From the NCBI GenBank assembly GCA_017861285.1, contig JAGFXO010000003.1, forward strand, positions 1 to 35,866: 35,866 bases of DNA. The letters run 5' to 3'. Under the pieces are notes generated by a model, which worked only from the letters and a program-made list of their open reading frames with translations, searched no databases and was not told the origin of the DNA. Shown one piece after another: positions 7,423-19,569 of this stretch (position 1 is its first letter; every line of letters begins with the position of its first letter). The translations under genes and the position numbers were made by a program. The stretch is from Geobacteraceae bacterium. Its GTDB lineage: Bacteria; Desulfobacterota; Desulfuromonadia; Geobacterales; Geobacteraceae.

Positions 7423-9690
7423 ATGACTGTTCAACCGCAAAACTTTCCCCATATTCTCTCCTGGATCGTAGAAGATAGCGGGCTGAAAACATTCCAGGTG
7501 GAAAACACCGTATCCCTCCTCAAGGAAGGCGCGACGGTTCCTTTCATCGCCCGCTACCGGAAAGAGCGCACCGGGGAACTGGACGAGGTGGCAATCCGCG
7601 ACATCGAAGAACGCCTTGCGTATTTTACCGAATTGGAAGACCGCAAGCTGACAGTGCTCAAATCCGTCGAAGAGCAGGGCAAGCTCACTCCCGAACTGAA
7701 GTCACGGATCGATACCACCCGGCAGAAGACCGAACTCGAGGATCTTTACCTTCCCTACAAACCGAAGCGGCGCACCAAGGCCACAATCGCCCGGGAACGG
7801 GGACTGGAGCCACTGGCCGACATCATTGCCTCACTGCAGTTTGTGGAGGGAACACCGGGAGAAGTCGCCATACCCTTCGTGGACGCGGAACGGGAGGTGC
7901 CCGATGCGGCGGCGGCCCTGGAGGGCGCCGGACATATCCTTGCGGAAAGGATTGCCGAAGACGCCGACTTGCGTGCTTTCGTCCGCCGCATGACCGTCGA
8001 AAAGGGTCTCATTTCCTCCCGGGTGGCGTCCGGCAAAAGGGAGACAGTCACCAAGTTCGAGATGTACTATGATTTCCAGGAGCCTCTCAAAGAAGCACCA
8101 TCCCACCGGATGCTCGCCATGCGCCGCGGGGAAAAGGAAGAGGTCCTGTTCCTTGCCATCATCGCCCCGGTGGAGGATATCCTTGCAGGGCTGAAGACCC
8201 GGACCATTACGAAGGAGACTATTTTCGGGACGATGCTGTCAAGCGTAGTCGAGGATTCCTATAAACGGCTCATGGCCCCATCCATCGAGGTGGAACTCCG
8301 GCTCGAATCGAAGCAGCGGGCTGAAGAAGAGGCCATCAGGGTGTTCGCCGAAAACCTGAGGAACCTGCTTCTGGCACCACCGGCGGGGAGCAAGCGGGTC
8401 CTGGGTATTGACCCGGGACTGCGGACCGGCTGCAAACTGGCGGCAGTGGACGGCACCGGCAGGTTTCTTGACCATGCCACCGTCTATCCCCACACCGGAG
8501 AAGAAAAGGCCAAAACAGCGAGGAAAGAATTACTGCGGCTCGTGGAGGTTTACCAAAGCGATATGATTGCCGTCGGCAACGGCACCGCCGGCAGGGAAAC
8601 GGAGAAATTTGTGCGTGATGCGTTGGCGGATTCGGGTAAGAAGCTTCCGGTCGTAATGGTAAGCGAGGCGGGCGCGAGCGTTTACTCCGCATCGGAAATC
8701 GCCCGCGAGGAATTCCCCGACCTCGATCTCACGGTGCGCGGCGCCATATCGATAGCAAGGCGGCTCCAGGATCCGCTTGCCGAACTGGTCAAGATCGATC
8801 CCAAAAGCATCGGCGTGGGGCAGTACCAGCACGACGTAAATCAGGCCTCGTTGAAAAAGGCCCTCGATGCAGTGGTGGAATCATGCGTCAACTATGTGGG
8901 GGTCGACTTGAATACCGCCTCCTGGGCACTGCTGTCCTATGTTTCCGGACTCGGTCCGGCCCTGGCTAAGGCAATCGTTCGCTACCGGGACGAAAACGGC
9001 GGCTTTCCATCCCGTCAGGCGTTACTGCAAGTTCCCCGTTTCGGCTCCAAAGCATTCGAACAGTCAGCCGGCTTTCTCCGCATCAGAGGTGGGGGCAACC
9101 CCCTCGACAACACCGCTGTTCATCCGGAGCGCTATCCTGTCGTGGAAACAATGGCCGCCGACCTCGGCGTCTCGCTGGCGGAGCTGGCCGCCGATCCGGT
9201 GATCGTATCACGCATCGACCTCTCCCGTTACGTAACCGATTCGGTCGGTTTGCCCACCCTGCGGGACATTATCGAGGAACTGAAAAAACCGGGACGCGAC
9301 CCGCGCCGGGAGTTCCAGGCAGCGGCCTTCCGCGATGACGTTTGCGAGATATCGGACCTCAGGGAAGGGATGGTACTGCAGGGTGTGGTGACGAATGTCA
9401 CCGCCTTTGGTGCCTTCGTCGACATCGGCGTGCATCAGGACGGCCTCGTGCATGTAAGCCACCTGGCGGACAGGTTCGTGAAAGACCCGAACGAGGCGGT
9501 CAGTGTCGGACAGATCGTCAGGGTGAAGGTGCTGACTGTTGACGGAGAAAGAAAGAGGATATCCCTCTCGATCCGTGAGGCGGAAGGCGGAATCCCGCAT
9601 CGGCAAAAAAGAGAAACAAAGACGGAACAGCCTGCCGGTATCGATCTGAGCATGCTGGAAAAGGCAGGGTTCAAAGTGCGGAAAAAATAG
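7423..9690 (+). CDS. tex: Tex-family RNA-binding transcription accessory protein
   Basis: 755 residues, the standard size of Tex. The N-terminal helical part carries VPFIARYRKERTGELDE. A YqgF-like RNase H fold starts near residue 326 (LGIDPGLRTGCKLA) and includes GNGTAGRETE. Helix-hairpin-helix motifs follow (VSGLGPALAKAIVRYR), and an S1 RNA-binding domain ends the protein (about 642-715; GMVLQGVVTNVTAFGAFVDIGVHQDGLVH). Tex binds nucleic acids and is tied to transcription and translation fidelity and to toxin expression in some bacteria. I chose ATG 7423, with AAAAGG eight bases upstream, over a GTG at 7414. It is monocistronic and converges on the deaminase gene. Confidence 0.97.
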   Translation: MTVQPQNFPHILSWIVEDSGLKTFQVENTVSLLKEGATVPFIARYRKERTGELDEVAIRDIEERLAYFTELEDRKLTVLKSVEEQGKLTPELKSRIDTTRQKTELEDLYLPYKPKRRTKATIARERGLEPLADIIASLQFVEGTPGEVAIPFVDAEREVPDAAAALEGAGHILAERIAEDADLRAFVRRMTVEKGLISSRVASGKRETVTKFEMYYDFQEPLKEAPSHRMLAMRRGEKEEVLFLAIIAPVEDILAGLKTRTITKETIFGTMLSSVVEDSYKRLMAPSIEVELRLESKQRAEEEAIRVFAENLRNLLLAPPAGSKRVLGIDPGLRTGCKLAAVDGTGRFLDHATVYPHTGEEKAKTARKELLRLVEVYQSDMIAVGNGTAGRETEKFVRDALADSGKKLPVVMVSEAGASVYSASEIAREEFPDLDLTVRGAISIARRLQDPLAELVKIDPKSIGVGQYQHDVNQASLKKALDAVVESCVNYVGVDLNTASWALLSYVSGLGPALAKAIVRYRDENGGFPSRQALLQVPRFGSKAFEQSAGFLRIRGGGNPLDNTAVHPERYPVVETMAADLGVSLAELAADPVIVSRIDLSRYVTDSVGLPTLRDIIEELKKPGRDPRREFQAAAFRDDVCEISDLREGMVLQGVVTNVTAFGAFVDIGVHQDGLVHVSHLADRFVKDPNEAVSVGQIVRVKVLTVDGERKRISLSIREAEGGIPHRQKRETKTEQPAGIDLSMLEKAGFKVRKK

Positions 9691-9754: not shown

Positions 9755-10345
9755 TCACCTGCGCGGGCTATAAATCATGCCCTCGCATTCACGGTAATCC
9801 CTGAGAGATCGAACGGCCTCATCCCTGCAGACATCCCGCACGACCGAAATTCCCCGGCGCTCTAGCGCGTCGACCCATGCAGGGGGTTTTTCCCCTTCAT
9901 CAAACCCGATGCGCTCCACATCCTCTCCCCTCGCACCACATGCAAGCCTGCGTATTCCGGACCACTGCAGTGCCCCGAGACACATGGCGCAGGGCTCCGC
10001 GCTCGCCACCAGTTCACACGGGCCAACCCCCTCCGCACCGAGATCAAAGGTGCCCGCCTTTGCCTGGGCAAGGATCATTGCCACGATTTCCGCATGGAGT
10101 ATCGAGCAGTTTCCTGAAACCACGAGGTTTACCCCGGCCGCCAGCAATGACCGGTCTCTCATGTCGAATATTGCCGCTCCGAACGGTCCGCCGGTCCCAT
10201 TCTCCACATTGAGCCGGGAAAGTTCGATGACGAGACGCATTCTCTCATCGACGGTTGGATATGTGCGTTCTGCTCTTGACAGGAATTTTTCCAGCCAATC
10301 AGGGAGTCTCACTGCAAGCGTCGGGTATGTCATTGCAATTTCCAT
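9755..10345 (-). CDS. Nucleoside/cytidine deaminase-fold protein
   Basis: 196 residues with the zinc site of the cytidine deaminase superfamily: HAE (84-86; H ligand, catalytic E) and EPCAMC (C119 and C122). The glycine-rich GGPFGAAI block near 52-59 matches the guanine/tRNA-adenosine deaminase branch. It lacks the usual TadA length and C-terminal helix, so a free-base or nucleoside deaminase is more likely; the substrate cannot be read. Its ATG at 10345 directly abuts the terC stop codon, implying translational coupling; an alternative start is 10333. It is the last gene of the manganese-riboswitch operon, an unusual place for a deaminase. Confidence 0.88.
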   Translation of the reverse strand: MEIAMTYPTLAVRLPDWLEKFLSRAERTYPTVDERMRLVIELSRLNVENGTGGPFGAAIFDMRDRSLLAAGVNLVVSGNCSILHAEIVAMILAQAKAGTFDLGAEGVGPCELVASAEPCAMCLGALQWSGIRRLACGARGEDVERIGFDEGEKPPAWVDALERRGISVVRDVCRDEAVRSLRDYRECEGMIYSPRR

Positions 10346-11119
10346 TTATTCCATCTTTTCCAGGGCCTTTTCGGCTTCATCCTCGCTGTATGCGTGGCGA
10401 AGGTGGACCGGTTTGACCTCGCGGTGGCGGACCCGGATGTTGAGCATTTCCACGGCAACGGAAAAGAACATGGCAAAGTAGATATATCCCTTGGGGATAT
10501 GCATCTCCAGCCCGTCGCCGATAAGCGCCACCCCGATCAGGATGAGAAAACTCAGCGCCAGAATCTTTATGGTGGGGTGCCGGTCTACAAACGCCGAAAC
10601 CTTGCCCGCAAAGATCATCATGAAGCCGACAGCAATGATGACCGCCGTAATCATGATCCACAATTGCCTCGCCATACCGATCGCGGTAATGATCGAGTCG
10701 AGGGAAAAGACGATATCGAGGAGCATGATCTGCACCATCATGGCTGCAAACGACGTCGCGGTGCGGAGGGAAACATGGCCCTCTTCCCCTTCCAGCTTTT
10801 CATGAATTTCCAGGGTACTTTTCCCGAGCAGAAAGAGCCCGCCTACAATGAGAATGAGATCCCGTCCCGAAATCTCGGTGCCGGGCACGGAAAAGAGGGG
10901 CGTTGTCAAACCCATCAGCCAGGTGAGGGAGAGGAGCAGGGCAATCCGGGAGAACATCGCGAATCCCAGCCCGATAATGCGTGCTTTTGACTGCTGCTCC
11001 GCAGGGAGTTTTCCCGTGAGGATGGAAATAAAGATTATGTTGTCGATTCCCAGCACGATTTCGAGTGCCGTGAGAGTTGCAAGCGCGGCAAGTGATTCGG
11101 GGTTAAGCAGAAATTCCAT
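10346..11119 (-). CDS. TerC-family integral membrane protein (probable metal exporter)
   Basis: 257 residues with about seven hydrophobic helices. TerC hallmarks are the acidic membrane motifs ALEIVLGIDNIIFI (D26) and LLDIVFSLDSIITAIGMA. Family members (Alx in E. coli; YceF and YkoY in Bacillus) are linked to manganese export and to exoenzyme metalation. The ATG has AGGAGG four bases before it. It lies third in an operon that starts with a yybP-ykoY riboswitch, the same regulatory pairing known for TerC genes, which strongly supports a manganese role here. The C-terminal ~25 residues are a hydrophilic tail. Confidence 0.93.
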   Translation of the reverse strand: MEFLLNPESLAALATLTALEIVLGIDNIIFISILTGKLPAEQQSKARIIGLGFAMFSRIALLLSLTWLMGLTTPLFSVPGTEISGRDLILIVGGLFLLGKSTLEIHEKLEGEEGHVSLRTATSFAAMMVQIMLLDIVFSLDSIITAIGMARQLWIMITAVIIAVGFMMIFAGKVSAFVDRHPTIKILALSFLILIGVALIGDGLEMHIPKGYIYFAMFFSVAVEMLNIRVRHREVKPVHLRHAYSEDEAEKALEKME

Positions 11120-11158: not shown

Positions 11159-12463
11159 TCAAGTCTTTCTGACAATTCTGACCTTGACGATGGATGTTGC
11201 CTTGACCTGCTCACAGATGATCCAGAAGCCCCTGAAATCTATTCTTTCCCCTTTTTCTGGAAACCTGCCGAGCTCGTCCAGTATCAGGCCCGACAGGGTA
11301 TCGTACATGAGCGGCCTGTCAATTTTCACCTCGAGGAGCTCTTCCAGGTCATTGATGGAAATCAGCGCGTCAACCAGAAGGCTTCCGTCAGCAAGTTTCT
11401 GCACCCGGCGCAGTTCATCCACATCATGCTCATCCTCTATCTCTCCGACCAGTTCCTCCAGCATGTCCTCCGTAGTGACGAGGCCGCTGATGCTTCCGTA
11501 TTCATCGACAACCAGAGCCATATGAACCCTTTTCTGCTGCATCTCTTTCAGCAGATCGCTGGCCTTCTTGTTTTCAGGAACATAAAATGGCGCACGAACG
11601 ATACTGTTGAGATCAAAATCCGGCCTGACTGCAGCACGCCCCAGGATAAAATCCTTGCTGTGGATGAAACCGACAATATTCTCGATATTATCGCGATAAA
11701 CCGGATAGCGGGAATACATATTTTCCCGGATCATCCTGATTATTTCTTCTTTCGGCAGACTAAGATCAAGCGCCACCATCCTGTGCCTGGGAACCATGAT
11801 CTCGCTGACATGGGTGTGGGTGAAATCGAGCATATTTTCAAAAAACTTGCGTTCGATACCGGTAAGAGCCCCGCTTTCACCGCCCTCCTGGACGATGTGA
11901 CGAACCTCTTCCCGTGAGATAAAGTCCTGTCCGGGCTCCACCTTTATGCCGAGGAGAGCCAGAACCGCCTTGTTCGAGATGGTAAGAAACTTGACCGCAA
12001 TACCCCCCGCAACAGCGAAATAATGGATGGGTTTGGCAACTGCCAGGGCCATTCTGTCCGCATACTGCAAGCCGATCGTCTTTGGGGCAAGTTCACCGAG
12101 GATCAGAGAAAAGTAGGAAACGAAGAAGACCATCGCCCCGATGGCAATCGGCTCGGCGCCTTTGCTGATAAACTCTACGGGTACCCCCGCGAGTACCGGT
12201 TCCAGGTATTGCACCGCCGTGGCTCCACCAACTGCCGAAGCCAGCGAACCCACAAGCGTCACCCCTATCTGGACGGTTGCGAGAAACCGGTGGGAATCGG
12301 TCTGGAGCTGGTCCACAATTTTTGCCCGGGGGTCTCCGATGGCAATGAGCCGGGCTATCCTGCCCTTTCGCGCGGAAATGATCGCCAGTTCCGAGCCCGC
12401 AAAAAATCCGTTTGCCAGAATGAGCACAAAAATCAGCAGCAGTTCAAGACCTATCGAGTCCAA
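11159..12463 (-). CDS. CNNM/CorC-HlyC family membrane protein with CBS pair
   Basis: 434 residues in the order CNNM transmembrane domain (DUF21, about 1-190; NGFFAGSELAIISARKGRI near the start), a CBS pair (about 205-335; EIMVPRHRM and VVDEYGSISGLVTTEDMLEELVGEI), and a CorC/HlyC C-terminal domain (about 350-434). The family carries or regulates Mg2+, Co2+ and related divalent cations, with nucleotide sensing by CBS. The start is a TTG with AGGAGG eight bases upstream; the nearer ATG runs into a stop in another frame. It lies 37 bases after UPF0182 and 39 bases before terC, so it belongs to the metal-responsive operon. Confidence 0.93.
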   Translation of the reverse strand: MDSIGLELLLIFVLILANGFFAGSELAIISARKGRIARLIAIGDPRAKIVDQLQTDSHRFLATVQIGVTLVGSLASAVGGATAVQYLEPVLAGVPVEFISKGAEPIAIGAMVFFVSYFSLILGELAPKTIGLQYADRMALAVAKPIHYFAVAGGIAVKFLTISNKAVLALLGIKVEPGQDFISREEVRHIVQEGGESGALTGIERKFFENMLDFTHTHVSEIMVPRHRMVALDLSLPKEEIIRMIRENMYSRYPVYRDNIENIVGFIHSKDFILGRAAVRPDFDLNSIVRAPFYVPENKKASDLLKEMQQKRVHMALVVDEYGSISGLVTTEDMLEELVGEIEDEHDVDELRRVQKLADGSLLVDALISINDLEELLEVKIDRPLMYDTLSGLILDELGRFPEKGERIDFRGFWIICEQVKATSIVKVRIVRKT

Positions 12464-12500: not shown

Positions 12501-15182
12501 TCATTGCGCCATCTGCTTCAATATCTGCTGCAGCTTGCGCAGTTCCTCTCCATAGCCTGCCCAGTCTCCCTGCCGCTGCAGTTCCGTCGCCCTTTCGAAT
12601 ATCCTCATTGCCTCCCTGGCAAGCCCCGGTCCCGTTACCGCAGCTTTCCCGTCCGCAGTCACCGGGGTAGAGGGAGCAATTTTTTTACCACCAAAAAGTT
12701 TCTGCAAGGCAAGCTCAAGGTTATCCTCCATGACCACTTCATTGCCGAAAGCGACGATGACCCTGCGCAATTCGGGAAGACCTGCCTTGTCCGCCGCCGC
12801 AAGATAGAGCGGCTGTACGTAGAGGAGAGATTTTTCGATCGGAATCACCAGCATACTGCCCCGTATTACCTCGGAGCCTCGCTGGCTCCATAAAGTCAGC
12901 TGCTGGGAAATATATGAATCCTGGTTAATGCGCGCGTCGATCTGTTTCGGGCCGTATATCAGCCGATCCCTCGGGAAGGTGTAGGCAAGGAGCTTTCCGT
13001 AATTGGGCTCGTCACACCTGGCCGTCAGCCATGCAGCAAGGTTGTCCCTTTTCGCCGGGGTAAAGGGGAGAAGCAGGATGTATTCCTCCTTCTTTTCGCC
13101 CGGGAGTTTCATGATGGTGTAATAGGGCTCCATCATCTTTTCGCCTACAACCGGAACCTCCCACAGGTTTTCCTTGTTGTAGAAGACCTTCGGATCAGTC
13201 ATGTGATAGGCGGCGAACATGGAAGCCTGTATCTGCAGAAATTGGTGCGGATAGCGGATATGCCGCTTCAAACCCTCGGGCAAGGCAGCGATCGGCTTGA
13301 AGAGTTTAGGGAATATCCGGGCATAGGCCTTTATGATCACATCGTCGGGATCGCTGATGTAAAAGTCAAGGGTGCCGTCATACGCATCGACAACCACCTT
13401 CACCGAGTTCCTCATGTAATTGATACCCCTGCTGATCGGTTTCGAGTAGGGAAGCCGGTTTGAAACGGTGTAGGCGTCGATCATCCATTTGAGCCTGCCG
13501 TCATCGGCAACGACCATATAGGGATCCGAGTCATAGGTGAGAAAAGGGGCGACGGTTTTGATCCGTTCGCCGATATTCCGATAGTACAGGACGCGGCTCT
13601 CCCGGGTTATGTCGGAAGAGAGAAGTATTTTTTCCGTTTTGAACCGGATTGCGAACATGGTTTTTCTGAGAAATGAATCGAGGAGAACCCCACCCTCCCC
13701 GGCATACGTAGTGTTGATGTTCCCGGACGCGGTGGGATAGCTGAATTCCGGGACCTTCGTCCTGACGATGACGTATTCGTTGGAAAGCTCGCCGTAATAG
13801 ATCTCCGGTCTGGAGACCTTGATATCCGCCAGGCTGACGGCGGGTATGTCTTTCACGAAAAACTCTGGGAGCCCTTCCTGGCTGATCCTGCTCACCGGCC
13901 CGAAAGTGAGGCCGTTTCCATGGGTGAAGATCAGGCGCTCATTGATCCAGTTCCTGCTGGGCAGATCGCTGTATGAGAGCTCACGCGGTGAAAGCATAAC
14001 TTGCGTGTACTGGCCGTTCACCGTATACCTGTCATTGTCCACATCGAAAAATTTGTAATAGGTCCGTATCTGCTGCAGCTGACTGTAGGTCCTGAGAAGG
14101 GGGGCATGGTCCCAGAGACGGATATTCTTGATGGTGGCCGCATTGTTGGTTATGTCCGTCGCGGCAAGCTTGTAATCCACGTCGAAGGGGATGGCCTCGA
14201 TCCTGTCCAGGTTATACCCCATGCGCGTAAATCTTATATTATGTTCTATGTAGGGCATTTCGAGAGCAAGTTCATTGGGCGCGACCTTGAATTTCTGCAA
14301 AAAAGCGGGATATGCTTTTATGCCGATCCCATACACCAGAAAAACTACCGCGGGAGCCAAGAGAGCCCTGCGCCAGTACCCTTTCCATATGACCGCTGCG
14401 AGGAAAACCGCGGCAGCGGGAGTAAGGATTGCCAGTAAACGATATGCCTGGAGCCGGGCATTTACGTCGGCGTACCCTGCGCCATGTACCGCACCGCCAC
14501 CCGAAAACAGGAGGCGGAACGAGTCCAGGTAGAAACCCGCCGAAACCGCAAGCATGAAAAGCCCTGCCAGGATTGCGGCATGTTTTCTTACTTTTGCGTC
14601 AATGTTCGGTCCCCTCGGCGAAATCGAAATACCGCCCCGCATATAGTACATCGCCAGGATCATTACCATCGTTGCAAACACCAGGAAGCTCAATGAGGAT
14701 TGCAGCATTTCCAGGAGCGGCAGGCTGAACAGGTAGAAACCGAGATCTTTCCCCACTATGGGATCGCTTGTTCCGACGGCAATCCTGTTCTGGAAGAGGA
14801 GGACTTTTTCCCAGTGAACGGAGCCCCACTGTCCGGCAAAGAGAGCAAGGACAGCCGCAGCAAGAATACTGAGCGGTTTCACGAGCAGCGAGGCTTCATT
14901 CATCTTGAACTGATAAATTGTCCGGCCTTCCATGAAAATATTTGCCTGGGGGAATTTTGCCCTGTTCGCAACAACGGTATTGACCAGGACAAAAGCGAGG
15001 GTAAACAGTGCGAAAAGGGCCCCGGCACCGGCCTTGGCAAGCAGGGTTGTCGTGAATACGGACCTGAATCCGGTCTCCACGAAGAACAGCCAGTCCGTAT
15101 ACAGATTGACGAGGGAGAAGATGAACGGAAGAATCATAAAAATAACGAGAAACAGAATAACTACCTTTTTTCGTCTCAACAT
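12501..15182 (-). CDS. UPF0182-family large membrane protein
   Basis: 893 residues. The N-terminal third contains about seven hydrophobic spans (MLRRKKVVILFLVIFMILPF at the start). The remainder is a large extracytoplasmic region with family features such as RNWINERLIFTHGNG and WLTARCDEPNYGKLLAYTFP. It ends in a short Gln/Leu-rich helical tail typical of UPF0182. The function of the family is unknown. The ATG has GGAGG six bases before it. It is the first gene behind a manganese riboswitch and is followed by a CNNM protein and TerC, suggesting a role at the membrane under metal excess. That is inference from the operon. Confidence 0.92.
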   Translation of the reverse strand: MLRRKKVVILFLVIFMILPFIFSLVNLYTDWLFFVETGFRSVFTTTLLAKAGAGALFALFTLAFVLVNTVVANRAKFPQANIFMEGRTIYQFKMNEASLLVKPLSILAAAVLALFAGQWGSVHWEKVLLFQNRIAVGTSDPIVGKDLGFYLFSLPLLEMLQSSLSFLVFATMVMILAMYYMRGGISISPRGPNIDAKVRKHAAILAGLFMLAVSAGFYLDSFRLLFSGGGAVHGAGYADVNARLQAYRLLAILTPAAAVFLAAVIWKGYWRRALLAPAVVFLVYGIGIKAYPAFLQKFKVAPNELALEMPYIEHNIRFTRMGYNLDRIEAIPFDVDYKLAATDITNNAATIKNIRLWDHAPLLRTYSQLQQIRTYYKFFDVDNDRYTVNGQYTQVMLSPRELSYSDLPSRNWINERLIFTHGNGLTFGPVSRISQEGLPEFFVKDIPAVSLADIKVSRPEIYYGELSNEYVIVRTKVPEFSYPTASGNINTTYAGEGGVLLDSFLRKTMFAIRFKTEKILLSSDITRESRVLYYRNIGERIKTVAPFLTYDSDPYMVVADDGRLKWMIDAYTVSNRLPYSKPISRGINYMRNSVKVVVDAYDGTLDFYISDPDDVIIKAYARIFPKLFKPIAALPEGLKRHIRYPHQFLQIQASMFAAYHMTDPKVFYNKENLWEVPVVGEKMMEPYYTIMKLPGEKKEEYILLLPFTPAKRDNLAAWLTARCDEPNYGKLLAYTFPRDRLIYGPKQIDARINQDSYISQQLTLWSQRGSEVIRGSMLVIPIEKSLLYVQPLYLAAADKAGLPELRRVIVAFGNEVVMEDNLELALQKLFGGKKIAPSTPVTADGKAAVTGPGLAREAMRIFERATELQRQGDWAGYGEELRKLQQILKQMAQ

Positions 15183-15250
15183 CGCATTCCTCCAGACTGA
15201 TGCATTTTCGGTGTCCTGATGGACATATGCTTTTCAGCTTACCACACCAG

Positions 15251-15399
15251 GGTATAAAAAAAGACCTTTACCTTTGGCATCAGCACCCAAGATAAAGGTC
15301 TTGCTTGCGAAATCAACGCCCCCTGCCCGGGCTCGAAAGCCGTATTGACGGGCCGGAAGTCAGCCTTTTCTCCGGCTGATAGCTACTCCCCTTTACAGG
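15251..15399 (-). ncRNA. yybP-ykoY (Mn2+) riboswitch with terminator
   Basis: On the minus strand the RNA begins near 15398 and contains the class signature GGGGAGTAGC (15382-15391). It continues with a TCAGCC/GGCTGA hairpin, a CCGTCAATAC segment, a GGCT-TTCG-AGCC stem-loop (15330-15341), and GGGCGTTGATTTC with CAAGACC at its 3' side. TAAAGG (15390-15395) can pair with CCTTTA (15293-15298) as the closing stem. Alternatively AAGACCTTTA (15293-15302) pairs with TAAAGGTCTT (15261-15270), followed by T7, an intrinsic terminator. The two pairings exclude one another, so metal binding should allow read-through. UPF0182 starts about 70 bases downstream. Known riboswitches of this class turn genes on with manganese. 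Confidence 0.87.
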
Positions 15400-15404
15400 C
15401 AGCG

Positions 15405-15434
15405 AGATTACCGTGAACAGGAAAACCTTGTCAA
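15405..15434 (-). promoter_or_regulatory. Promoter of the Mn-riboswitch operon
   Basis: On the minus strand, TTGACA (15429-15434) and TAATCT (15405-15410) are 18 bases apart. The predicted start near 15398 falls just upstream of the riboswitch aptamer. Confidence 0.75.
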
Positions 15435-15464: not shown

Positions 15465-15947
15465 TCATCGTATTTCCTGGGCGGAACCGGTAAACGAGAT
15501 CCCCTGGCCGGAATAGGTGCCTATCATGAGCGATTCAACGACAGGCGCATTGACCTCCCTGTCCGCCCGCCACCTGACGATGAAACTGGCGCCGAATCCA
15601 CCGCTCGTATCACGTTCCTTGATGAAAAAACTGGAAGATGCGAGAGGTTTCAGGGAAAACGGCTTCTGTACCATTCTTCGTACCAGTTTGCCGTTCGAAT
15701 CATAGTAATCCACCGATACCACGGTGATCGGATTCGACATGTCCGCATTGCGCACGCTCAGTGTTGCCGCCAGATTGAAAGGCGCGGCCCTGTCGCCGAT
15801 ATACACATGTGAATACGTCGGCACGTAGAGGGCCTGCCCCCGGGATAACCGCACCTCCGCAAAACAGCAGTCATATGACAAAACAGGGATTGCAAGGCCG
15901 ATCAGGAGGAGAAACAGCGTGTGTAACATCCGACGGGTTGAGTACAT
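15465..15947 (-). CDS. DUF3124-family secreted protein
   Basis: 160 residues with an N-terminal signal peptide (basic MYSTRRM, then LFLLLIGLAIPVL) and a mature part that matches DUF3124 as I know it (QALYVPTYSHVYIGD, LAATLSVRNAD, VRWRAD). Function unknown; predicted periplasmic. I preferred the ATG at 15947, with AGGGG seven bases before it, over the longer in-frame start at 16001, since the shorter form begins at the signal peptide. It lies about 50 bases after the Kef-type antiporter and is probably co-transcribed with it. Confidence 0.8.
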   Translation of the reverse strand: MYSTRRMLHTLFLLLIGLAIPVLSYDCCFAEVRLSRGQALYVPTYSHVYIGDRAAPFNLAATLSVRNADMSNPITVVSVDYYDSNGKLVRRMVQKPFSLKPLASSSFFIKERDTSGGFGASFIVRWRADREVNAPVVESLMIGTYSGQGISFTGSAQEIR

Positions 15948-15997
15948 GTCATCCCCTTTCTCCGGCAAAGAAGGCTTTCCGCCATCTTCCAGCCGGA

Positions 15998-17995
15998 TCA
16001 TGCAGATTTTTTCCTTTCGGCGGTTCCGAAAAGCCGACCGGCAGCAGCAAGCTGTTCGGGAGTCCCCAGCAGCAGGACAATGTCCCTGGTGTGCATCTCC
16101 CAGACCGGGTCCGGGTTGGTAAAGATCTCTTCGCCCCGTTTGATGGCAAGGACCGTGGCGCCCGATCTGCTTTTCAGAGTCCCTTCCCGCAGGCTTTGTC
16201 CCTCGAGGGGAGCCCCCTGCTGAACCATGAAAGTCCCGATTTCGACCCCGGCAAGGTATCCGCTGATACCGACCGCGGAACTGTGCCGGCGGCTCATGGT
16301 GCGGAACATTTCGTACGAGTCGCTCCTGACTTCGGCAATATATTCCTCGATCCGGTCATGGGGCAGGAGATATCTTCGCAGCACCCGCGAAAGAATCTCG
16401 ATGGACGTTTCGAATTCTTCCGGGATAACCTCATTTGCTCCCAGTTTGTACAAAGGCTCCATTTCCGCAACGTACCGCGTCCTGACGATAACATGAAGCA
16501 TGGGCTGCATCTGCCTCGCCTGGGCGGCGATGCGCCTGCTGGAAGCAGCATCGGATATGGCAACGACCATAATCCGCGCTTTATCGATATTCGCGTGGGA
16601 GAGAATTTGCGGGTTCGAACCATCGCCGAAAATTATGTGGTGGCCCTTTCTCTTCTCAGCACTGACCGTAAACGGGTTGGTTTCTATGACTACATGGCCG
16701 ATCTTCAGGTGCTTGAGCACCCTGGAAAGGTTTCTGCCGTTCAGGCCGTACCCGACAATAATCACATGATCGGCGAGATTCAGCTTTTGTTCTTTTCCCG
16801 CAAGGGCCCCCTTCCCCCTGGTAAAGCGCGCCGGGAGACAGCGGACCAAACGATCGGCAACCGGTGCGGCAATCTTGAGGCATACCGGGGTCAGTGCCAT
16901 GGTTGCCACCGAAGCGGCAAGAAAAATCTGGTACAACTCCTGAGACAGCAATCCCTGTTTCAATCCCTCAAGAGAGAGGACAAAGGAGAATTCACCGATC
17001 TGCGCCAGTGACAGCCCGGTGATTATTGCAATGCGCAGCGGTAAACCCAGGGAAGCGGCCGCTCCGGAAGCGATTATGGCCTTTATGAGAATAATAGAAA
17101 CAACGAGCGAAACGATCAGGACAGGATGGAGCAGGAAGACACCAGGGTCGAGCAGCATGCCGACGGAAATGAAAAACAGGCTCATGAACGCGTCACGAAA
17201 AGGGATGATATCGCCGAGAGCCTGGTGGCTGTATTCCGACTCTGAGATCGCAAGTCCCGCAATGAAAGCACCGAGGGCGAGTGAAAGGCCGACCCGGGAG
17301 GTGATCCAGGCCGTTCCAAGGCCGACAAATATGATCGCCAGGATAAAAAGTTCGCGGCTTCGGGTCTTTACCACCTGCGCGAAGATCCAGGGGACGGCAA
17401 ACCTGGCGCCGTAATGGGCGCAAACCACCACCAACGCGGCCTTTGCGGACACAGCCAGAATCCCCTGCAATCCCTCACCAGATCCGGCAAGAAACGGGAT
17501 GAAAAGCATGAGCGGCACCACGCACAGGTCCTGAAAAATGAGGATACTCAGGGCCATTTTCCCGGATGGTGTGTCAATCTCCCCGGCATCCATCAGCAGT
17601 TTCATGAGGATGGCGGTACTGCTCAGCGCCACAAGGAATCCGAAAAAGGCGGACTGCTGTAAAGTGAATCCCAACCCGACGGAAAGGGCGGCAATGGCCA
17701 GGATCGTCAGACCGAGTTGAAGCCCCCCGCCCCAGAAGACCAGATACTTGATTCGCATCAGTTCCTTAAGGGAAAACTCGATCCCGATGGTGAAAAGGAG
17801 CAGCACCACGCCGATCTCCGCCATCTGCTCCACCTGATGAGTATCACTGATGAACCCCAGGGTATAAGGGCCCGCGATCATGCCGGCAAAAAGAAACCCG
17901 ATGATGGACGGAAACATGAGCCGCCTGAAAATAATCACGGTGGCAACCGCGATACCCAGGAGGATTTCAATTTCCTTCAAAGAATTTAGATCCAT
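15998..17995 (-). CDS. CPA2 cation:proton antiporter with RCK domain (KefB/C-like)
   Basis: 665 residues. The N-terminal Na+/H+-exchanger domain has about 12 spans (residues 1-380; GFLFAGMIAGP near the start and FISVGMLLDP). An RCK/TrkA-N Rossmann domain follows (about 408-525; DHVIIVGYGLNGRNLSRVL, with FGDGSNPQIL), then a TrkA-C domain (about 570-655). The family moves potassium or sodium against protons and is gated by nucleotides or thiols. The start shows only a weak Shine-Dalgarno (GGGTGAT). A promoter lies about 70 bases upstream. DUF3124 follows in the same operon. The ligand and ion specificity cannot be read from the sequence. Confidence 0.93.
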   Translation of the reverse strand: MDLNSLKEIEILLGIAVATVIIFRRLMFPSIIGFLFAGMIAGPYTLGFISDTHQVEQMAEIGVVLLLFTIGIEFSLKELMRIKYLVFWGGGLQLGLTILAIAALSVGLGFTLQQSAFFGFLVALSSTAILMKLLMDAGEIDTPSGKMALSILIFQDLCVVPLMLFIPFLAGSGEGLQGILAVSAKAALVVVCAHYGARFAVPWIFAQVVKTRSRELFILAIIFVGLGTAWITSRVGLSLALGAFIAGLAISESEYSHQALGDIIPFRDAFMSLFFISVGMLLDPGVFLLHPVLIVSLVVSIILIKAIIASGAAASLGLPLRIAIITGLSLAQIGEFSFVLSLEGLKQGLLSQELYQIFLAASVATMALTPVCLKIAAPVADRLVRCLPARFTRGKGALAGKEQKLNLADHVIIVGYGLNGRNLSRVLKHLKIGHVVIETNPFTVSAEKRKGHHIIFGDGSNPQILSHANIDKARIMVVAISDAASSRRIAAQARQMQPMLHVIVRTRYVAEMEPLYKLGANEVIPEEFETSIEILSRVLRRYLLPHDRIEEYIAEVRSDSYEMFRTMSRRHSSAVGISGYLAGVEIGTFMVQQGAPLEGQSLREGTLKSRSGATVLAIKRGEEIFTNPDPVWEMHTRDIVLLLGTPEQLAAAGRLFGTAERKKSA

Positions 17996-18231: not shown

Positions 18232-18302
18232 ACTAAACAGGGCAAAACCATTTGATTTGACACGAAAAAATCAGCTTTCAGGAATTTAGTTAATTCATCG
18301 CT

Positions 18303-18390
18303 GGGGGAGTTTAGGCTGAGAGTCCGTTCCAGAGAGTGTAACGGGCGACCCTTTGAACCTGATCCGGATAATTCCGGCGGAGGGAAGCGT
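18303..18390 (+). ncRNA. TPP riboswitch (THI element)
   Basis: Contains GGGGAG, then GCTGAGAGT, ACCCTTTGAACCTGATCCGG, and GGAGGGAAGC, the conserved core of the thiamine pyrophosphate aptamer in the right order. It precedes thiS, thiG and thiE. The terminator 25 bases downstream makes this a transcriptional off-switch. Confidence 0.97.
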
Positions 18391-18415
18391 GCTTGTTGGG
18401 GACACCACCTAGAAT

Positions 18416-18786: not shown

Positions 18787-19569
18787 ATGTCTGATGCGAC
18801 GGACAAACTCGTGATAGCAGGTCGCGAATTCACTTCGAGGCTTATGGTCGGCACGGGAAAATACGCCAGTTTTCAACAGATGGTAGAAGCCATCGAGATT
18901 TCGGGGGCGGAGATCATTACCGTGGCTGTGAGGAGGATCAATATTTCCGACAGGAACAAGGAATCCCTTCTCGATTTTATCGACACGGGGAAATATACCC
19001 TGCTGCCCAATACCGCCGGGTGTTATACCGCGGATGATGCCATTCGCACCTGCCGCCTGGCACGTGAAGCCGGCCTTTCCGATTTTGTAAAACTGGAAGT
19101 TCTGGGCGATGAGAAGACCCTCTTCCCCGATAACGAGGAATTGCTCAAGGCTGCCAAGGTCCTTGTCAAGGAAGGTTTTACCGTCCTTCCCTACACGAGC
19201 GACGACCCGATAGTCTGCAAGAAACTCGAAGATATCGGATGTGCCGCCGTCATGCCGCTCGGGGCTCCCATCGGCAGCGGTCTCGGCATACGTAATCCGT
19301 ATAACATCCGCATCATCATGGAGACGGTCAAGGTTCCCGTCATTGTCGACGCCGGCGTCGGCACTGCTTCTGACGCCGCAATTGCCATGGAACTGGGGTG
19401 TGACGGTGTACTCATGAACACGGGAATCGCCGGGGCCCGGGACCCGATAGCCATGGCGGAAGCCATGAAACTTGCGGTCATTGCCGGTCGTCTTGCCTGC
19501 AAGGCCGGCCGGATACCGAAAAAGCTCTATGCAACGGCGTCCAGCCCTCTTGAAGGGGTTATCGAATAG
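18787..19569 (+). CDS. thiG: Thiazole synthase ThiG
   Basis: 260 residues, TIM-barrel. It condenses deoxyxylulose phosphate, ThiS-thiocarboxylate and dehydroglycine into the thiazole moiety. Family blocks are [27 protein letters not shown], the Schiff-base lysine K102 in VKLEVLGD, and [12 protein letters not shown] plus VGTASDAA for phosphate binding. Ninety-nine bases separate it from thiS, with AAAAGGAG before the ATG. No thiH or thiO lies nearby, so the dehydroglycine supplier must be encoded elsewhere. Confidence 0.98.

Follow-up and report, generated by a model that had tools for sequence, protein, structure and literature searches.

A probable manganese riboswitch leader precedes a UPF0182-CNNM-TerC operon

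In a 35,866-nucleotide stretch of a Geobacteraceae genome (contig JAGFXO010000003.1; hereafter the window), positions 15395-15254 of the minus strand very probably constitute a yybP-ykoY-class Mn2+ riboswitch that acts by transcription termination and would turn on a manganese-excess operon composed of UPF0182, CNNM, TerC and, by position, a deaminase. A preliminary description of this DNA had proposed a promoter, an aptamer and a terminator followed by four genes on the same strand, and Pfam, motif and fold checks recovered all of these parts on the minus strand. The predicted sigma-70-type promoter (15407-15434) consists of TTGACA (15434-15429), a 16-nt spacer and GGTAAT (15412-15407), matches the consensus at 10 of 12 positions and stops 11 nt short of the aptamer. 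The aptamer (15293-15395) has the yybP-ykoY architecture, with P1.1, L1, P1, P2, P3 carrying L3 (CGUCAAUAC), and P4. It is followed by an intrinsic terminator (15254-15302), whose 5' arm takes in the 3' strand of P1.1. We looked for a promoter-like site between the terminator and UPF0182, where a separate promoter had been named as evidence against riboswitch control, and found none.

All four genes scored above their Pfam cut-offs. UPF0182 (12501-15182; 893 aa) matched PF03699 over its full length (2-770 of 770, 968 bits). The second gene (11159-12463; 434 aa, TTG start) encodes a CNNM/CorC-type protein with a CNNM membrane domain, a CBS pair and a CorC_HlyC domain, and the third (10346-11119; 257 aa) encodes a TerC family membrane protein (PF03741, 156 bits) that is intermediate between the YkoY and YjbE subfamilies and under both cut-offs. 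The fourth (9755-10345; 196 aa) encodes a zinc-dependent nucleoside/cytidine-type deaminase. On re-measurement, the intergenic gaps of 37, 39 and 0 nt were exact, and the four genes are probably co-transcribed. The interval first assigned to the operon, 12501-15434, covers the leader and UPF0182 and falls short of the operon end, as the genes continue to 9755.

Elsewhere in the window, DUF3124 and KefB-type genes lie upstream of the leader (15465-17995, minus strand); in some relatives (L169, L174 and L176) such genes are found downstream of UPF0182 inside the riboswitch operon. We also observed a TPP riboswitch (18293-18402, plus strand; 65.5 bits) upstream of a thiazole-synthase-like ORF (18787-19569).

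The aptamer and the terminator compete for a shared strand

The isolated 105-nt aptamer was predicted to adopt a four-way junction as its minimum-energy fold (-35.7 kcal/mol). The full leader, the fold of which is more stable than chance (z = -2.9), was predicted to favor the 14-bp terminator hairpin (15302-15261, minus strand), which has a U run after it (-54.9 kcal/mol). The two mutually exclusive pairings noted earlier proved to be real: UAAAGG with CCUUUA forms P1.1, and AAGACCUUUA with UAAAGGUCUU forms the terminator, so that the 3' strand of P1.1 is shared with the expression platform. Each of these pairings is possible in 95-100 of 100 element sequences.

A motif search in 50 loci yielded homologous leaders in relatives, and 17 of these were aligned. 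The alignment supports P1.1, P1, P2, P3 with the L3 internal loop, and P4, with 96% of cells paired, and 16 of 31 pairs covaried with changes on both sides, compared with 2-5 in slid controls. Over 100 elements, covariation was seen at 24 of 31 pairs (8-11 in slid controls), in an alignment fitted to a clade covariance model, R1, that was built and aligned within the same clade, so that this larger alignment leans to R1's own structure. The promoter is conserved as well: a site matching at least 10 of 12 positions occurs in the 100 nt upstream of 76% of 76 homologous elements, compared with 1% of shuffles, and always 7-12 nt before the aptamer.

The unpaired bases are nearly invariant. L1 GGGAGUA, the L3 adenosine and AGAC are present in all 100 elements, and one flanking base in 99 of 100. 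The L1 core GGGAGUA faces AGACC, and the same motifs occur in the E. coli mntP and alx leaders. In the solved aptamers, the Mn-sensing adenosine lies in UCA41AUUC (L. lactis) or ACA48UACU (X. oryzae); when this base is mutated, the Mn-specific state is lost (PMC6754395). Judged by motif, aptamer position 50 within CGUCAAUAC (15346, minus strand), an A in 100 of 100 elements, probably corresponds to A41/A48.

The Rfam model misses a clade of yybP-ykoY elements

The preliminary description had anticipated a match of the leader to RF00080, the Rfam model of the yybP-ykoY class, and had counted its absence as a refutation. This expectation failed: there was no match at the gathering threshold and none at E≤10. 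The whole genome gave no RF00080 match at E≤0.001, and in 58 relatives no element reached the cut-off, with weak or chance matches only. RF00080 also gave no match to the leader of E. coli alx, which is known from experiment, and scored E. coli mntP at 41.6 bits, under the 45-bit cut-off; its printed consensus structure is without the P1.1 pairing. The model is therefore insensitive, and the negative result is not discriminating. R1, made from the 17 clade leaders alone, scored the element in the window at 143.5 bits and found E. coli alx at 26.7 bits (E = 9e-4). It also found a relative's element upstream of GDT1 (E = 3.5e-5), which RF00080 itself detects at 33 bits.

The element shares the four-way junction and the L1/L3 core bases of known RF00080 members (L. 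lactis yybP, X. oryzae, E. coli mntP and alx), in which a P1.1 switch helix likewise shares a strand with an intrinsic terminator and TerC, GDT1 and P-ATPase genes are the targets. It differs from them in its Geobacterales-type sequence, which RF00080 does not score, and in its first gene, which is UPF0182 here and most commonly HtpX in relatives. Taken together, the architecture, the invariance of the ligand-site bases and the content of the regulon strongly support the predicted yybP-ykoY assignment, which holds despite the negative RF00080 result.

The elements precede a manganese-type regulon in Geobacterales

We detected the R1 element in 42 of 48 family genomes, 118 of 141 order genomes and 29 of 297 genomes of a phylum sample; the records of the named relatives are labeled Geobacter, Trichlorobacter, Geobacteraceae and Desulfuromonadales. 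For a gene count we used 117 elements, picked mainly by R1 score, and sampled one over-represented genus more sparsely. The genes behind them were counted anew with translated searches, as longest-ORF calling had masked HtpX-TerC in one locus (L132) behind opposite-strand shadow ORFs. The first recognized same-strand gene was HtpX at 61 elements, TerC (two subfamilies) at 23, a ribbon-helix-helix (RHH) gene at 10, a P-type ATPase at 8 and UPF0182 at 3. Within 7.5 kb downstream, TerC, GDT1 or a Ca/Mn-type P-ATPase was encoded on the same strand at 87 of the 117 elements, and UPF0182 was found at 40. Altogether, 107 elements precede at least one of UPF0182, TerC, GDT1, HtpX, P-ATPase and pyrophosphatase. 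Family calls within this regulon included HtpX, MneA-type GDT1, Alx-type TerC, a manganese-dependent inorganic diphosphatase and a PMR1/SERCA-like P-ATPase. The genome studied here carries a second Mn-type element on another contig (C36; L128:400-545, plus strand), which precedes a 904-aa PMR1/SERCA-like P-type ATPase gene.

A typical relative has the order element-HtpX-RHH-TerC-P143-UPF0182-GDT1-TerC. In many relatives, the gene that separates TerC from UPF0182 is P143 (L086:4905-5333, plus strand), which encodes a 143-aa protein with no Pfam or NCBIfam match and was counted at 22 of the 117 elements. At six loci (L205, L207, L209, L217, L140 and L131), the element is followed by RHH and Tim44-like genes, and no known Mn exporter is encoded less than 7.5 kb away; these genes are candidate new members of the manganese regulon. 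One locus (L138:10605-10751, minus strand) has the element before BacA (undecaprenyl-diphosphate phosphatase), an unusual target for an Mn riboswitch. Another (L136) has two Mn-type elements in one orientation (9001-9145 and 9982-10126, minus strand), about 840 nt apart, and some genomes (G029, G104 and G132) contain five or six elements.

CNNM is a conserved neighbor and the deaminase is not

The suggestion that CNNM takes part in the metal response gained indirect support. In 31 of 47 family genomes, CNNM lies convergent to the element, within 7 kb downstream, and this conserved neighborhood independently supports a functional tie to Mn loci. Among the 47 genomes, only the one studied here has CNNM co-directional inside the operon. 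Recombination among CNNM, TerC and CorC domains is also seen in cation-stress proteins of Salmonella (PMC12421838).

The deaminase is present in 12 of 48 family genomes. At its loci in nine relatives, no TerC, element or other listed gene adjoined it, and it is therefore best treated as an incidental, private neighbor, not as a conserved operon member. An assignment as the tRNA deaminase TadA was rejected (27.7 bits against an NCBIfam equivalog cut-off of 150), and the protein is classed only as a deaminase-fold protein (PF00383) of cytidine/deoxycytidylate type.

UPF0182 is linked to the element within one lineage

A survey with R1 supported the earlier suggestion that UPF0182 belongs to the manganese response. 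Among 82 full-length UPF0182 genes in the order, 48 lie downstream of a same-strand element, 47 of these within 4 kb, and no gene has an element placed or oriented otherwise within 13 kb. If a genome of 3-4 Mb carries about two elements, then by a rough estimate chance alone would account for fewer than one such linkage. The element stands immediately before UPF0182 in the window (68 nt apart) and in two other genomes, G132 (94 nt) and G011 (267 nt). The remaining 34 genes have no listed element nearby, some being cut by contig ends. UPF0182 is also encoded in 28% of the phylum sample, as well as in C. glutamicum and Synechococcus. Members of the order excepted, neither the motif nor an Mn-type gene adjoined UPF0182 at the 30 top-ranking loci taken from the phylum sample or at four further distant loci with names. 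Thus, the link between UPF0182 and the element is real but lineage-bound, and because UPF0182 has no visible link at the loci checked outside the order or in 34 of 82 cases within it, it is not an obligate Mn-regulon gene.

These absences also fit the explanation that UPF0182 is a passenger, carried in the manganese operon by lineage descent and serving, for example, general envelope biogenesis without a metal function. We consider this a serious possibility. Against it, the linkage is kept in 48 genomes of three families and is always co-oriented, and it stays even as the gene order shifts, with UPF0182 directly after the switch, after TerC or after HtpX-RHH-TerC-P143.

We utilized AlphaFold2 to predict the structure of UPF0182. 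An alignment of 46 sequences gave a model with a pLDDT of 86.8, whereas 23 sequences gave a poor one. Seven helices, predicted to span the membrane, make up the N-terminal portion of the structure, and the large C-terminal part is folded. The cytoplasmic loops contain 4, 4, 5 and 3 lysine and arginine residues, a positive-inside pattern that would place the C-terminal part of about 570 aa outside the cytoplasm. A sequence search of solved structures returned chance matches only, and Foldseek and VIA-align searches with the model found no convincing relative, which is not proof of a new fold.

The TerC proteins of B. subtilis supply exported proteins with metal, and HtpX and Sec components are recovered together with them on purification (PMC10550928). 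HtpX also belongs to the present operons in relatives. The occurrence of HtpX, TerC and UPF0182 in one Mn-switched operon in these relatives suggests that UPF0182 may act in the same envelope-side module. We tentatively propose, as a rather speculative reading, that UPF0182 is an unrecognized manganese-handling part of the envelope that forms an Mn-induced module with TerC and HtpX, in which its part of about 570 aa would pass exported Mn2+ to extracytoplasmic proteins or quality-control them.

Proposed mechanism and signal

The arrangement of P1.1 and the terminator is that of the P1.1 switch known from L. lactis (PMC11087558), and read-through in the presence of Mn2+ is expected by analogy with how the riboswitches of L. 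lactis and X. oryzae work. Without Mn2+, AAGACCUUUA would pair downstream and the terminator would form. Mn2+, together with Mg2+, would dock L1 on L3 and stabilize P1.1. Because a single strand cannot serve P1.1 and the terminator at once, this should block termination and allow RNA polymerase to read into UPF0182-CNNM-TerC(-deaminase). TerC, and probably CNNM, would then move metal out, and UPF0182, with its seven helices and large extracytoplasmic part, may work in the envelope beside them, if it has a role in manganese excess.

Related arrangements are known. B. subtilis MeeY (YkoY) is likewise a TerC protein under an Mn-type riboswitch (PMC10550928), but UPF0182 and CNNM are absent from the text of that paper, and the TerC studied here scores under both subfamily cut-offs, YkoY and YjbE. 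In Vibrio, mneA and terC encode a GDT1/UPF0016-type and a TerC-type exporter behind the same riboswitch class; they differ from the present operon in lying at separate loci, and the accessible portion of that report (PMC13274385) does not name UPF0182 as a target.

Mn2+ is the probable ligand. It is improbable that the aptamer here answers mainly another divalent ion, or pH as in E. coli alx, with Mn2+ a secondary signal. Such a reading would accommodate the failure of RF00080 on the element, the stabilization of the X. oryzae aptamer by Cd2+ as well (PMC6754395) and the elements before HtpX, BacA and RHH-Tim44 genes, which have no known Mn role. However, the element retains the mapped core bases of the solved structures, and MneA-type GDT1, Alx-type TerC, PMR1-like P-ATPase and Mn-dependent pyrophosphatase make the regulon Mn-typical. 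That the leader is a mere terminator attenuator or chance hairpin without a ligand, as the missing RF00080 match and the stable fold of the terminator alone might suggest, is already contradicted, with a negligible chance of being right, by the covariation of the four-way junction, the invariance of the unpaired loops and the competition of aptamer and terminator for a strand, none of which it would lead one to expect.

Implications

The riboswitch belongs to a known class; the putative link of UPF0182, and of HtpX and CNNM, to manganese appears to be new. UPF0182 is mentioned in nine open-access papers, and our search of the open-access literature found no paper joining UPF0182 with yybP-ykoY or COG1615 with manganese, a search that did not extend to the original 2015 riboswitch papers, which might list UPF0182. 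A large clade of Mn riboswitches, found in 118 of the 141 genomes from one order, has gone unreported by the standard Rfam model. Since RF00080 in Rfam 15 misses alx and scores mntP below threshold, censuses of the class that rely on it will undercount. HtpX, CNNM and Tim44-like genes emerge as candidate members of the manganese response in these bacteria. Finally, an Mn riboswitch before UPF0182 provides a first direct functional hypothesis for a widespread membrane family that has had no assigned function.
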